This document shows positions 4,120 to 13,216 of a stretch of DNA of 21,429 bases, piece after piece; the first letter of the stretch is position 1; each line of letters begins with the position of its first letter. Origin of the DNA: a virus. Under the pieces are notes generated by a model. It was not told the DNA's origin and searched no databases. It worked only from the letters and a program-made list of their open reading frames with translations. Both the position numbers and the translations under genes were made by a program. The stretch is from the IMG/VR virus record IMGVR_UViG_3300028571_000144, positions 1 to 21,429 of that record. One strand, 5' to 3'.

Positions 4120-5478
4120 ATGTCAAATACATTTCTTGCTTCTCTACGCGAGAAGCGCGAATCAAAGACATCACTCATTCAATCAACTTTAGATCGCGCC
4201 GCAGAAGAAGCACGCGACCTATCTGAAATTGAGTTGGCTAATGTTGAAGCCCTCAATTTAGAAATCAAAAAGTTAGATGAAAGAATTGAGCAAATGTCAG
4301 ATATTGAAATTCGCAATCAAAAGGCGGCTGATTTAGCGGCTAAGGTTGATGCGAATGTTGAGCCAAAGAAGGAAGTTCGCGCAGGTGGCTTCAGTGTTAC
4401 ACGCGAGGAACTAACTTACTCAGAGCGCACCGCAGATAAATTCTTAGGTGATGCACTAAAAGCACAATTTGCAAATGACTATGAAGCATCAGAGCGTATT
4501 CAACGCCACCAAAAAGAGATGGCAATTGAAAAGCGTGCATCAGATTCAGGCAATTTTGCAGGCCTTGTAGTACCTCAGTATTTAGTTGATCTTTATGCAA
4601 AATTAGCACGCGCCGGTAGGCCGTTCGCTGATGCCGCACGCAAGCATCCACTACCTACACAGGGCATGTCAGTAGTCATATCTCGTATCACAACTGGTAC
4701 AAATGTGGCTTACCAAACATCAGAAAACACTGCCGCAGTAAGCACTGATCCTGATGACACAACACTCACAGTAAATGTGAACACAATTGCTGGACAAAAC
4801 AGCATTTCAAAGCAAGCATTACTACGCGGATACAACATTGAAAACATTGTATTAGCAGACTTGTTACGCGCTTATCACACAAAACTTGATGATGCCCTTA
4901 TCAATGGATCAGGATCAAATGGACAACCATTAGGTCTAAAGAGCATGACAACAGGAATCTTGGTAACTTACACAGCGACCACAGGTACAGTTGCCGGCCT
5001 TTATCCAAAAATTGCAGATTCAATCCAACAGATTCAATCAACAATTTATGCTAATCCAAATGCAATCATCATGCACCCACGCCGCTTAGGATTCCTATTG
5101 GCTGGAGTAGATGGTTCAAATCGCCCACTTGTAGTACCAAACGCTTACAATCCAATGAACGCAATTGGAACAGGCAATGGAACACCACAATACGGCAATA
5201 GCGGTTATTCAATTCTTGGATTGCCAATTATTACTGATGCGAATGTTGCAACAAATATTGGCGCAAGCACAAATCAAGATACAATCTTTGTGGTTGATCT
5301 TAATGAGTGTCATCTTTGGGAAGAAGCCGGTTCACCAACTTATGTTAAGTTTGAAGAGCCAAACGGCAAGGTTGCAATCAACATTGTTATGTTTGGAATG
5401 TCAGCCTTCACAAGTTTGAGATACCCAGGCGCAATTGCGCAAATTAATGGAACTGGTTTGGCTTCACCTAGTTTCTAG
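4120..5478 (+). CDS. Major capsid protein (HK97 fold)
   Basis: A 452-residue major capsid protein of the HK97 gp5 family. The first 80 or so residues are charged, probably coiled coil (LNLEIKKLDERIEQMSDIEI at about 46-65), and correspond to the delta/scaffold domain. The linker VEPKKEVRAGGF at about 81-92 is a plausible protease cleavage region. The mature domain follows from about residue 130 (GNFAGLVVPQYLVDLYAKL), through the P-domain and E-loop (TTGTNVAYQTSENTAAV) to the A-domain (NAIIMHPRRLGFLLAG, GYSILGLPIITDANV) and a C-terminal strand (VMFGMSAFTSLRYPGAIAQI). The ribosome site AGGAG is the best in the head region. A strong hairpin follows the gene. Confidence 0.95.
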   Translation: MSNTFLASLREKRESKTSLIQSTLDRAAEEARDLSEIELANVEALNLEIKKLDERIEQMSDIEIRNQKAADLAAKVDANVEPKKEVRAGGFSVTREELTYSERTADKFLGDALKAQFANDYEASERIQRHQKEMAIEKRASDSGNFAGLVVPQYLVDLYAKLARAGRPFADAARKHPLPTQGMSVVISRITTGTNVAYQTSENTAAVSTDPDDTTLTVNVNTIAGQNSISKQALLRGYNIENIVLADLLRAYHTKLDDALINGSGSNGQPLGLKSMTTGILVTYTATTGTVAGLYPKIADSIQQIQSTIYANPNAIIMHPRRLGFLLAGVDGSNRPLVVPNAYNPMNAIGTGNGTPQYGNSGYSILGLPIITDANVATNIGASTNQDTIFVVDLNECHLWEEAGSPTYVKFEEPNGKVAINIVMFGMSAFTSLRYPGAIAQINGTGLASPSF

Positions 5479-5490
5479 GCTAAATAAGTT

Positions 5491-5520
5491 TCCAGGCCGC
5501 TACCCTTCCAGTGGCCTGGA
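5491..5520 (+). terminator. Strong hairpin after the capsid gene
   Basis: An 11-bp stem (5491-5501 with 5510-5520: TCCAGGCCGCT against AGTGGCCTGGA, one G-T pair) closes an 8-base loop. It begins 13 bases after the capsid stop. The downstream bases are TTCTAACTAT rather than a T run, so it may be a leaky terminator, an RNA-processing site or a 3'-end stabiliser that keeps capsid mRNA in excess over the downstream tail genes. Confidence 0.6.
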
Positions 5521-5528
5521 TTCTAACT

Positions 5529-5597
5529 ATGATTGGTATTTAGAGAATGGAGTTTGTCTAATGTCCCAGGGCGATTCAGGATTTGGATACCAATCAT
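5529..5597 (+). repeat. 11-bp inverted repeat enclosing a leader ORF
   Basis: ATGATTGGTAT at 5529-5539 is the exact reverse complement of ATACCAATCAT at 5587-5597. Wobble pairs could extend the stem inward (T540-G586, T541-G585, A542-T584). In mRNA this would pair across a 47-base loop and hide the AUG at 5596-5598 of the connector gene, while leaving the ribosome site and start of the short ORF at 5561 exposed in the loop. Confidence 0.6.
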
Positions 5598-5605
5598 GGC
5601 TATAG
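5561..5605 (+). CDS. 14-codon leader peptide before the connector gene
   Basis: The frame encodes MSQGDSGFGYQSWL and stops. It has a better ribosome site than the gene that follows: GGAG at 5549-5552, 8 bases before ATG 5561. It ends 7 bases beyond the connector start codon at 5596, so a ribosome finishing it would unwind the 3' arm of the inverted repeat and end near that start codon. This looks like a translational-coupling leader rather than a functional peptide. It is short enough to be chance; only the arrangement of ribosome site, repeat and overlap supports it. Confidence 0.4.
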   Translation: MSQGDSGFGYQSWL

Positions 5606-6219
5606 TAAATGGATATGCAACATTAACTCAGATTAAGGCTTACATGTCTATATCAGATAATACTGATAATGACTTGTTAGAAGATTTAGTTGAATCAGCA
5701 TCTAGGTCAATTGATCGGATTGCTAACCGTAGATTTTATTTAGATTCCACTGCATCAGCCCGGCTTTACCGTGCCTACTCTAATATTTTTGTTTTTGTAG
5801 ATGACATTGGAACTACAAGTAGTTTAGTTGTAGCAATGGATGAAGATGGCAACGGTACATATTCTAAAACATTAACATTAAACACAGATTATATTTTAGA
5901 CCCATTAACATCACAATCTTTGAATAGGCCTTTTACCCAATTAACAATGGTATCTAATACTGAATCATGGCCAATATTCCCAGGCATTACATCAAATGGA
6001 TTACGCCCAGGTGTACAGGTAACTGCAAGATGGGGTTGGCCTTCAGTGCCGGATGATATAAATATGGCCTGTTTAATATTAACTGCCGACCTATACAAGC
6101 GTAAAGATGCCCCAGGTGGAATCTTAGGCTTAGGCGATCTAGGCGTTGTAAGAATGTCACCTATTGGTAGAGATGTAACCGCAATGGTTAGAGCCTACAA
6201 AAAAGAAGTTATTGCATGA
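5596..6219 (+). CDS. Head-tail connector (HK97 gp6-like)
   Basis: A 207-residue head-completion protein that would form a ring under the portal. The N-terminal helical region (YATLTQIKAYMSI, LLEDLVESASRSIDRIANRR) is the hallmark of gp6/gp15-type connectors: a helix, a DNDLLEDLVESAS-like acidic helix, then a basic RIANRRFY. A strand-rich middle (LVVAMDEDGNGTY, DYILDPL) and a C-terminal basic segment follow. I start it at ATG 5596. A TTG at 5533 would add 21 residues, but it has no ribosome site and an unusual Arg/Trp-rich sequence. The ATG itself has no well-spaced Shine-Dalgarno and lies in an inverted-repeat arm, suggesting coupling to the leader ORF. It overlaps the next gene by 4 bases (ATGA). 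Confidence 0.8.
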   Translation: MAIVNGYATLTQIKAYMSISDNTDNDLLEDLVESASRSIDRIANRRFYLDSTASARLYRAYSNIFVFVDDIGTTSSLVVAMDEDGNGTYSKTLTLNTDYILDPLTSQSLNRPFTQLTMVSNTESWPIFPGITSNGLRPGVQVTARWGWPSVPDDINMACLILTADLYKRKDAPGGILGLGDLGVVRMSPIGRDVTAMVRAYKKEVIA

Positions 6220-6626
6220 ATCCCAGTACAGTTAGAGATAATCTAAAAACTGCACTGCAAACAATTAGCGGTATGCGTGTATTTGATTATGTCCCTGATT
6301 CTACAAACATACCAACAAATAACGCTTTTGCGATAGTTGGCCAATTATCTATGAATTATGATTACACATTAAATAGAGGATTTGATTCTGCATCATGTCA
6401 GATCATTGTTGTAGTCGGTAGAATGAGTGAAAGAAATGGGCAGGAAAGATTGGATGGGCTACTTGCTTCATCCGGTTCAACTTCAATTAAAGCCGCCGTT
6501 GAAGTTGATAAAACTTTAGGTGGTGCTGTACAAACACTCAGGGTTGTGTCTGCAAGCCCTGGAACAATAACATCCGCTAATATTGACTACTTAAGTTATC
6601 AATATTCAGTAGAGTTGATAGGTTAA
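6216..6626 (+). CDS. Tail terminator / head-tail joining protein
   Basis: A 136-residue protein between connector and tail tube, the place of the tail terminator (tail-completion) protein that caps the tube at the head end. The pattern fits that fold: an N-terminal helix (VRDNLKTALQTI), a strand with VFDYVPD, AFAIVGQLSMNYDYTLNRG, then CQIIVVVGRMSERNGQERLDGLLAS with a following helix, and a C-terminal strand pair (QTLRVVSASPG, YQYSVELIG). No diagnostic motif exists for this family, so the call depends on position, size and secondary-structure order. It starts in an ATGA overlap with the connector. Confidence 0.65.
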   Translation: MNPSTVRDNLKTALQTISGMRVFDYVPDSTNIPTNNAFAIVGQLSMNYDYTLNRGFDSASCQIIVVVGRMSERNGQERLDGLLASSGSTSIKAAVEVDKTLGGAVQTLRVVSASPGTITSANIDYLSYQYSVELIG

Positions 6627-7066: not shown

Positions 7067-7324
7067 ATGCACAAGATTGAGATTGTTAAAAAGGATGGTA
7101 AAAAAGTAACTTATGATCTTACGCCATCTGCTAAGGTGGCTTTTGAAGCCGAATTTAAGACCGGTTGGCGTAAGAGATTAAGTGAACTACAAATGGAATC
7201 TGATTTGTGGTGGTTCGCTTGGCGTTTAGAAAAAGATGCCGGCAAAACCGATTTAGCCTTTGGTGATGATTACATCAATCAATATTCAGATGTTGATTTG
7301 GTTTATGACTCAAAAAATGGATAG
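7067..7324 (+). CDS. Tail assembly chaperone, short form (lambda gpG-like)
   Basis: An 85-residue protein: strands at the N-terminus (HKIEIVKKDGKKVTYDLTPS), then helices (AKVAFEAEFKTGWRKRLSEL, ESDLWWFAWRLEKDAG). It sits between tail tube and tape measure, the invariant place for the chaperone that coats the tape measure during tail assembly. A GGGTGGGA stretch upstream serves as ribosome site. The stop TAG (7322-7324) is 4 bases past an A AAA AAT slippery site, so a minority of ribosomes would make the longer form listed separately. The sequence itself is not a strong family match; order and frameshift carry the assignment. Confidence 0.82.
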   Translation: MHKIEIVKKDGKKVTYDLTPSAKVAFEAEFKTGWRKRLSELQMESDLWWFAWRLEKDAGKTDLAFGDDYINQYSDVDLVYDSKNG

Positions 7325-7485
7325 ACCGTCACGGCCAAATTTACGAAATCGCATCTGTGGCGGTAAGTACCGGGATTAGCCCTAAAGATTTATTAGAAGT
7401 TGATCCAGCGATTTATTCAGCAATAAAAGCCATCTTGCAAGAACGCTATTACAACAACAAGAAGGCAACAGTTAGGCGGAAATAA
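7067..7485 (+). CDS. Tail assembly chaperone, -1 frameshift long form (lambda gpGT-like)
   Basis: Slipping back one base on A7312 AAA AAT7318 joins the short form to a second frame that runs to TAA 7483-7485, giving 139 residues in all. The added part begins KKWIDRHGQIYEIASVAV and includes GISPKDLLEVDPAIYSAIKA and a basic tail (NNKKATVRRK). That second frame opens only after a TGA at 7306-7308, four bases before the slippery site, and has no ATG near its beginning, so it cannot easily be translated alone. The DLLEVDP..Y.AI..IL pattern resembles the C-terminal part of other actinophage chaperones. It ends in a TAATG overlap with the next gene. Coordinates are the span; reading shifts at 7312-7318. 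Confidence 0.8.
7312..7318 (+). other. Programmed -1 frameshift slippery site
   Basis: The heptamer AAAAAAT is read as ..A AAA AAT in the chaperone frame and fits the X XXY YYZ rule. After slipping, Lys codons re-pair with AAA AAA. The zero frame stops 4 bases later and the -1 frame stays open for 56 more codons. A short stem (CCG/CGG around 7326-7334) lies downstream but no strong stimulatory structure is obvious. Confidence 0.8.
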
Positions 7486-12183: not shown

Positions 12184-12692
12184 TGACAGCCACATATGAA
12201 AAGATAGCAACAACTACTTTAGGTAGTGCCACAACAAGTGTTACCTTGAGTTCCATTAGCGGCAGTTACACAGATTTAGTTTTAATTATGCAAATTGCTT
12301 CTAATTCTAGTAACACTCTTTTTGCTAGATTTAATGGAGATTCTGCTACTAATTACAGCACTACTAGATTAAGTGGTACTGGTAGTTCTGCTGTATCAGA
12401 TAGAGAATCTAATTCCTCAACTATGGCACTAAGTAATTACGCCTATCCATTATCTACACTTGGTACTACTACACACATATTTCAAGTCTTTAACTATTCA
12501 AATACTACAACTTTCAAAACTGCTATGTGTAGAGGTAATTCAGCCTCAGATGGTGTAGATGCCACAGTTAGTTTATATCGTTCAACAAGTGCTATAACTT
12601 CTTTAAGTATTAGTACTAATGGATTCGGTGGCACTTCTAGCCTTCTTACAGGTTCAACCTTCACACTCTACGGAATACTTAAGGAAGCATAA
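12183..12692 (+). CDS. Tail-tip paralogue 2 (candidate receptor-binding)
   Basis: A 169-residue protein, the most diverged of the three. It keeps the layout: YEKIATTTLGSATTSVTLSS followed by ISGSYTDLVLIM at the N-terminus, FARFNGDSATNYSTTRLSGT in the middle, and SAITSLSISTNGFGG with TLYGILKEA at the end. Ser and Thr are very abundant, typical of exposed beta structures. Linked by TAATG overlaps on both sides, so the three would be translated in series from one message in similar amounts. It may form homo- or hetero-trimers with its neighbours at the tail tip (inference). Confidence 0.6.
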   Translation: MTATYEKIATTTLGSATTSVTLSSISGSYTDLVLIMQIASNSSNTLFARFNGDSATNYSTTRLSGTGSSAVSDRESNSSTMALSNYAYPLSTLGTTTHIFQVFNYSNTTTFKTAMCRGNSASDGVDATVSLYRSTSAITSLSISTNGFGGTSSLLTGSTFTLYGILKEA

Positions 12693-13216
12693 TGGCTAAT
12701 ACATATACTTTAATTTCTAGTGTTACGGTTGGTAGTGGTGGTACTACTAGTATTGCATTCAGTTCAATACCTGCTACCTATACGGATTTAGTATTAGTTT
12801 TATCTTTAAGACAAGACCAAACAGCGGCTAATGATGGACAAATACCCGCAATACAATTTAACGGCTCATCTAGTAATTTTTCTAGTAGAACTCTCAGGGG
12901 TACTGGAAGTGCGGCAAGTTCATTTTCTGCTATTACAAACATATTAACTTATGGCTCAGACCCTAGTGATTTTACTTCAAATACTTTTGCCAATACTCAA
13001 GTTTATATCCCTAATTACACTTCAAGTAATAACAAATCATTTAGTTTAGATGGTGTAACAGAGAATAATGCGACAAACGCACAAGCGGCTTTACAGGCTA
13101 ATCTTTGGTCACAAACTGCCGCAATAACTTCAATTACATTAACGCCCTTTATTGGTGGTGCTGCCGTTTTTGTTCAATACTCAACCGCTTATCTATATGG
13201 AATATCTAACGCATAA
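12692..13216 (+). CDS. Tail-tip paralogue 3 (candidate receptor-binding)
   Basis: A 174-residue protein closest to paralogue 1 at its ends: YTLISSVTVGSGGTTSIAFS with SIPATYTDLVLVLSL at the N-terminus and AAITSITLTPFIGGAAVFVQ with YLYGISNA at the C-terminus. The middle (QTAANDGQIPAIQFNGSSSN, FANTQVYIPNYTSSNNKSFS) differs clearly from both neighbours. A 26-base stretch at 12758-12783 is nearly identical to paralogue 1. The start is again in a TAATG overlap. The gene ends 14 bases before the next, which has its own strong ribosome site, marking the end of the coupled series. Confidence 0.6.
   Translation: MANTYTLISSVTVGSGGTTSIAFSSIPATYTDLVLVLSLRQDQTAANDGQIPAIQFNGSSSNFSSRTLRGTGSAASSFSAITNILTYGSDPSDFTSNTFANTQVYIPNYTSSNNKSFSLDGVTENNATNAQAALQANLWSQTAAITSITLTPFIGGAAVFVQYSTAYLYGISNA
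12758..12783 (+). repeat. Direct repeat copy B (paralogue 3)
   Basis: The partner of 11728-11753, one mismatch in 26 bases, about 1030 bases apart. Recombination between the two copies would fuse paralogues 1 and 3 in frame and drop paralogue 2. Confidence 0.65.

Follow-up and report, generated by a model that had tools for sequence, protein, structure and literature searches.

A putative leader ORF inside a hairpin that buries the connector start: a candidate for translational coupling in one family of HK97-type phages

Genomic setting of the capsid-connector junction

The window, i.e., the whole stretch of 21,429 nucleotides that was analysed, is a 21.4-kb virus record that carries an HK97-type head module in the standard layout: portal, protease, capsid, connector, tail terminator, and tail tube. 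The major capsid gene (4120–5478, + strand; phrog_2263 major head protein, E 3.2e-45) lies upstream of, and in the same direction as, a gene for an HK97 gp6-like head-tail connector or adaptor (5596–6219, + strand; phrog_442 head-tail adaptor, E 2.7e-15), the protein product of which can be aligned with a phiPsal1 protein annotated as neck protein and with adaptors of Rhodococcus phages. The start of the tail terminator gene (6216–6626, + strand; phrog_17840, E 9.4e-24) overlaps the connector stop (ATGA) and its translation is therefore probably coupled to that of the connector in turn; this junction (6216–6219) is kept in relatives as ATGA, TAATG, or TAAATG. The tail tube gene has a strong Shine-Dalgarno (SD) sequence of its own.

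We gathered relatives of this locus by a protein-only search, which returned 80 close relatives, and enlarged the set by later searches. Alignment A2 holds 58 distinct leader-bearing sequences, and counts of structural ensembles and ORFs refer to 88 distinct regions.

A conserved hairpin follows the capsid gene

Just downstream of the capsid stop lies a first hairpin (hairpin 1; 5491–5520, + strand), in which an 11-bp stem (5491–5501/5510–5520) is closed by the octaloop ACCCTTCC (5502–5509). Across 16 distinct versions, 100% of cells in the stem are paired, eight of the 11 pairs have changed on both sides, and covariation is 0.696 vs 0.241 for shuffled data. The octaloop ACCCUUCC is invariant in the same 16 versions; it served as the search anchor in some searches, and the loop also appears in the protein-only searches. 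In L364, a member of the divergent lineage described below, the stem is extended to 13–14 bp with the same octaloop. We considered whether hairpin 1 is an intrinsic terminator and rejected this, given that it has no T tract and that a terminator scan finds none. No other ACCCTTCC hairpins occur away from the capsid-connector junction in the fetched loci, the window holds no excess of complements that might pair with the ACCCUUCC loop, and hairpin 1 matches no Rfam family. Hairpin 1 is also retained in relatives that lack the leader described below. Being kept in such variants, position-specific, and without T tract or Rfam match, it is separable from the leader device.

A long hairpin is predicted to bury the connector start

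The earlier note had described an exact 11-bp inverted repeat with the connector start codon in its 3' arm. Both observations proved exact: ATGATTGGTAT (5529–5539) is the reverse complement of ATACCAATCAT (5587–5597), and the connector ATG lies at 5596–5598. The repeat lies at the heart of a longer RNA stem of 18 bp (hairpin 2; 5527–5544/5582–5599, + strand), in which the 5' or anti-start arm (5527–5544) pairs with a 3' arm (5582–5599) containing both the connector ATG and a weak SD, GGA (5585–5587). An apical hairpin, TTGTCT/GGGCGA (5554–5574, + strand; stem 5554–5559/5569–5574), presents the ATG of a short leader ORF in a 9-nt loop.

Folding of the RNA had been proposed as a check, and its outcome agrees with a stable structure. 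The 76 nt from 5525 to 5600, folded alone, reach −29.1 kcal/mol (z −4.9) and none of 200 dinucleotide shuffles is as stable, which indicates that hairpin 2 is not a product of chance; its arms are among only a few of at least 16 nt in the 21 kb. In predicted ensembles, the probability that the connector start is unpaired is 0.002 for the window and averages 0.005 over the 88 regions, with a maximum of 0.03. The connector start and SD region combined are the most closed of 20 gene starts tested in the window. The leader start, by comparison, is predicted to be unpaired with a mean probability of 0.89 over the 88 regions, but the leader SD region with a probability of only 0.39. Rfam yields no match at or above the gathering score in the window, and the best sub-threshold matches at 5450–5640 are at chance level.

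The earlier note had further held that the connector has no well-spaced ribosome site. This needs amending, since GGA (5585–5587) lies 8 nt before the ATG; what stands is that the site is weak and inside the stem. The connector SD reads GGAG in the relatives L293–L297.

The loop carries a short ORF with a kept start, frame, and stop

The leader ORF (5561–5605, + strand) consists of 14 codons, MSQGDSGFGYQSWL, followed by the stop TAG (5603–5605), which lies 10 nt into the connector gene. It is preceded by the SD sequence GGAG (5549–5552, + strand), and the ends of the ORF are as first described. GGAG is invariant in 58 of 58 sequences, with AAAGGA in the lineage of L364 and L486; its spacer to the leader start is 6–8 nt in the 58 sequences, and its duplex with the anti-SD has an energy of −7.4 kcal/mol.

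The leader start is present in all 88 distinct regions (87 ATG, one GTG) with no in-frame stop, and the leader stop, with its 10-nt overlap with the connector, in 87 of 88; the sole exception is L216, where the stop is lost (TAC). Eight gapped columns precede the leader in the alignment and none falls inside it, save for one whole codon in the divergent L486. Two neighboring mini-ORFs serve as an internal control for this conservation: that from ATG 5529 varies in length (4, 10, 14, or 25 codons), as does that from ATG 5547 (4, 8, or 18 codons, or no start), and both were rejected as conserved ORFs on these grounds.

The leader stop is formed by the third codon of the connector (Ile3). This codon is ATA in 58 of 58 leader-bearing sequences, whereas ATA makes up 29% of the remaining Ile codons in these genes. 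Among distant relatives without a leader it is ATA in four of 61, and L292, a close relative without a leader, has ATT; these counts are not phylogenetically independent of one another. Part of the conservation of the leader comes free, as it sits in a conserved stem and overlaps a conserved gene.

The encoded peptide behaves differently from the ORF, which is under selection. In leader codons 4–7 and 10–12, substitutions at positions 1 and 2 are as frequent as at position 3, giving residue changes such as S/T/F, Q/T, G/D/S, D/S/N/T/K/E/A, Y/D, and Q/R/W. Residues 2–7 and 10–12 vary freely, and the peptide of L486 reads MSNDSRGRGQSWL. The constant tail, WL followed by the stop, mostly follows from the connector's ATGGCTATA and from the stem. 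The leader peptide is thus not evidently selected and its sequence does not appear to be required. Since the peptide is not conserved, the function probably lies in translation itself, i.e., it is probably the act of translation, rather than the product, that is kept.

Stem pairing is maintained by compensatory changes

The same layout was found in every one of the 80 close relatives from the protein-only search with upstream DNA present. The earlier note had looked to aligned relatives for compensatory changes in the arms, and these are present: 98.7% of basal-stem cells are paired across the 58 distinct sequences, five basal-stem pairs show change on both sides, and the observed covariation was reached by none of 500 shuffles. 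The apical stem also shows a double change (CG in 41 sequences, UA in 16) at columns 73–85. When changes were counted on a tree of 133 connector genes, pair 48–107 toggled between U-A and C-G about 12 times, with both sides always changing together, although recombination could inflate this count; seven independent contrasts are placed on branches with good support, and in each of them the partner changes as well.

The variants that occupy the same stem positions across phages illustrate this pattern: GATTGG/CCAATC, GATCGG/CCGATC, GGCCGG/CCGGTC, GGCCGG/CCGGCC, GGCCAG/CTGGCC, GGTTGG/CCAACC, and GGTCGG/CCGGCC. The basal U-G pair adjoining the start codon is replaced by C-G in L377 and L364. All leader-bearing sequences come from one phage family.

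A divergent lineage keeps the device and three close relatives have lost it

The L364/L486 lineage, found in three contigs, has connector DNA that is 76% identical to that of the window, and its hairpin 1 stem and hairpin 2 loop are largely different. It nevertheless keeps a 10-bp core of the stem (CCATGATTGG/CCAATCATGG). Its leader, which begins with GTG in the apical loop behind the SD AAAGGA, is 13 codons long and again overlaps the connector by 10 nt.

Relatives with unpaired arms or no leader ORF had been named as findings that would speak against the reading of the locus. For the family as a whole, arms are paired and the leader is present, except in three close relatives (L257, L292, and L370), where hairpin 2 and leader are both missing. 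As these phages do without either element, the device is dispensable. In L370, AAAAAGGA lies upstream of the connector ATG, the connector has its own SD, and its start is predicted to be open (0.84–0.91 unpaired). In L257 and L292, folding predicts a paired connector start within another local structure, and these two are therefore no simple open-start controls. Hairpin 2 without a leader start was not seen among the relatives, though the position of the leader within the loop makes joint loss in part a geometric necessity.

A connector protein starting upstream of 5561 had likewise been named as a contrary finding; distant connectors instead align from the same Met. No cultured phage with similar DNA was found. 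The protein relatives phiPsal1, Jflix2, and Madraxi share 31–33% identity and the same gene position; the two junctions read, those of phiPsal1 and Jflix2, have an SD before the connector start and no leader. Approximately 75 phiPsal1-like viral contigs (31–43% identity) have no leader either, and a covariance model gave no match in those searched. Among genome contigs, one relative was found (45% identity), in a MAG labelled Nocardiaceae, and it has no leader.

Some observations on these relatives stand apart. The phiPsal1-like phages (L087–L166) often have TAGACT or TAGAAT a few nucleotides before the connector ATG, which fits the expected −10 element of a leaderless transcript, and in phiPsal1 itself glycosyltransferase and methyltransferase genes separate capsid from connector. 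In L385, around position 1501, the capsid 3' end joins the connector 5' end almost directly, without stop, hairpins, or leader; this suggests either a deletion variant of the capsid-connector region or a chimera produced in assembly, and L385 was left out of the analysis.

Leader translation would open the hairpin and start the connector

The earlier note had proposed that leader translation opens the hairpin and delivers ribosomes to the connector. The compensatory changes, together with the kept leader start, frame, and stop, support this proposal, and we consider a translational-coupling leader of this kind to be the probable explanation of the locus (roughly 77%). In this model, a long hairpin would form in the mRNA downstream of the capsid gene and close off the connector AUG together with its weak SD. 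Ribosomes could start at the leader AUG because the apical loop exposes it and a good SD lies shortly before it. A ribosome translating the 13–14 codons would cross the 3' arm, melt the stem, and terminate at the leader stop, 7 nt past the connector A(+1); the connector would then be started either by the terminating ribosome, through a short backward move aided by GGA, or by a second ribosome. We infer leader translation and coupling from comparative sequence data and modelled folds: the lock, leader start, and leader stop are kept while the peptide varies, which suggests that leader translation probably opens the lock and sets the amount of connector.

The likely purpose of such an arrangement would be to throttle a low-copy connector, and with it the coupled tail terminator, that is encoded beside the capsid gene. 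From neighbouring genes, tailed phages have to supply capsid subunits by the hundred and connector subunits by about the dozen, and it is from the stoichiometry of HK97-type virions that we infer a connector dose set by the leader below that of capsid. The locus is a compact, evolutionarily supported candidate for translational setting of the capsid:connector ratio in one phage family.

Other readings of the same structures are considerably less probable. Hairpin 2 might act only in mRNA processing or stability, e.g., as an RNase III-type site where the capsid message gives way to that of the connector, with the leader incidental. The stem, about 18 bp long and almost perfect, would suit such a role, as would the second strong hairpin directly after the capsid gene; however, the stem is placed exactly on the connector start, and processing leaves unexplained the leader start, SD spacing, frame, and stop, the fixed ATA, and the codon-sized indel. 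We regard this reading as improbable.

Somewhat less probable again is that hairpin 2 serves as a translational operator: a phage structural protein or some other factor would bind it and so regulate the connector without leader translation. The coat protein of MS2 binds the replicase start hairpin, and here too the connector start lies in a hairpin, adjoined by hairpin 1 with an invariant octaloop that something may recognise. Yet L486 replaces both the loop and the apical stem of hairpin 2, so that no conserved recognition site is left in it, and an operator would not account for the features of the leader ORF.

A functional small peptide, or an arrest peptide with a sensing role, is another conceivable product of the leader. 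This has little to commend it beyond the common C-terminal SWL or PWL, as residues 2–7 and 10–12 are free to change, up to the MSNDSRGRGQSWL of L486, and the overlapping connector gene and the stem leave little choice for the final residues; we hold it to be very improbable. Least credible is a promoter that gives the connector its own short transcript, with TATGAT (5528–5533) as −10 element: the motif is near consensus and distant relatives have TAGACT or TAGAAT just before the connector start, but it becomes TATGGC, TATGGT, or CATGGT in relatives with pairing kept, and no promoter-like pair was found on either strand of 5300–5750, for which reason this reading was rejected.

A more elaborate form of regulation can be proposed tentatively. 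Hairpin 1 and the leader hairpin might be two parts of one composite RNA device, so far undescribed, by which environmental phages separate capsid from connector output, the octaloop being read by a phage or host factor. We consider this unlikely, if less so than the alternatives to coupling above; were it true, connector synthesis would be conditional and not merely low.

Comparison with known coupling systems

The resemblance to known translational-coupling leaders that the earlier note had pointed out is borne out structurally. Every structural feature of such leaders that could be tested is found here, i.e., a start and SD predicted to be buried, a short ORF with its own SD and a start predicted to be accessible, and an overlapping stop, as in systems of the tap-repA and S004-repA kind. 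For tap-repA of the IncFII plasmid R1, Blomberg et al. are said to have found in 1992 that translation of a short leader opens a hairpin over the downstream start, and the phage leader is proposed to do likewise. The R1 leader is also the target of the antisense RNA CopA, whereas no antisense RNA is known at the phage leader; a scan for consensus promoters on both strands of 5300–5750 found none.

The same plasmid system is cited as the classic leader-repA case in a study of Salmonella Genomic Island 1 (SGI1), where the final four codons of S004 run into repA, within a long inverted repeat by which the repA SD and start are masked, and where S004 translation in cis is required for RepA (PMC7826253). 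The phage locus is similar in that a leader overlaps its target within a structure hiding the target's start. The S004 leader is longer (at least 24 codons), starts upstream, and serves a replication protein; here, in contrast, the setting is a phage structural operon, and no part of the leader falls outside the loop and 3' arm of its own hairpin. A trick of plasmid copy control appears to be used in a virion operon.

Among phages, MS2 coat-lysis and f1 gene VII are coupling pairs in which a start that is inactive alone or closed by structure is activated by ribosomes from an upstream ORF (PMC12548453). That upstream ORF is a real gene, whereas the phage leader is a dedicated mini-ORF without conserved product. 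A 2025 review describes short ORFs that only deliver ribosomes as a proposed, possibly widespread mechanism (PMC12548453). The leader resembles this proposed class in being a short ORF that would serve solely to drive the gene after it, and goes beyond that class in having a covarying sequestering hairpin and comparative evidence. A search of the open-licence literature turned up no description of such a leader at the connector of a dsDNA phage, which does not prove absence. By analogy with these systems, the locus appears to represent a known kind of mechanism in a new setting, the HK97-type connector, and it adds a motif of mini-ORF and RNA hairpin that annotation misses.

Other structures in the window

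Two further loci in the window carry inverted repeats. The first is a tail assembly chaperone-like pair (7067–7485). Its first frame ends at 7324 after CAAAAAAT, likely a −1 slippery site that gives access to the second frame, the end of which lies near 7485. Within the first frame there is an 18-nt inverted repeat (7109–7183). The second is a 14-nt inverted repeat (12598–12611/12674–12687), the 3' arm of which (AATACTTAAGGAAG) contains the SD of an ORF at 12692–13216 that starts at a TAATG overlap with the previous stop. It is possible that 12598–12687 forms a second start-locking structure, opened by translation of the upstream gene.
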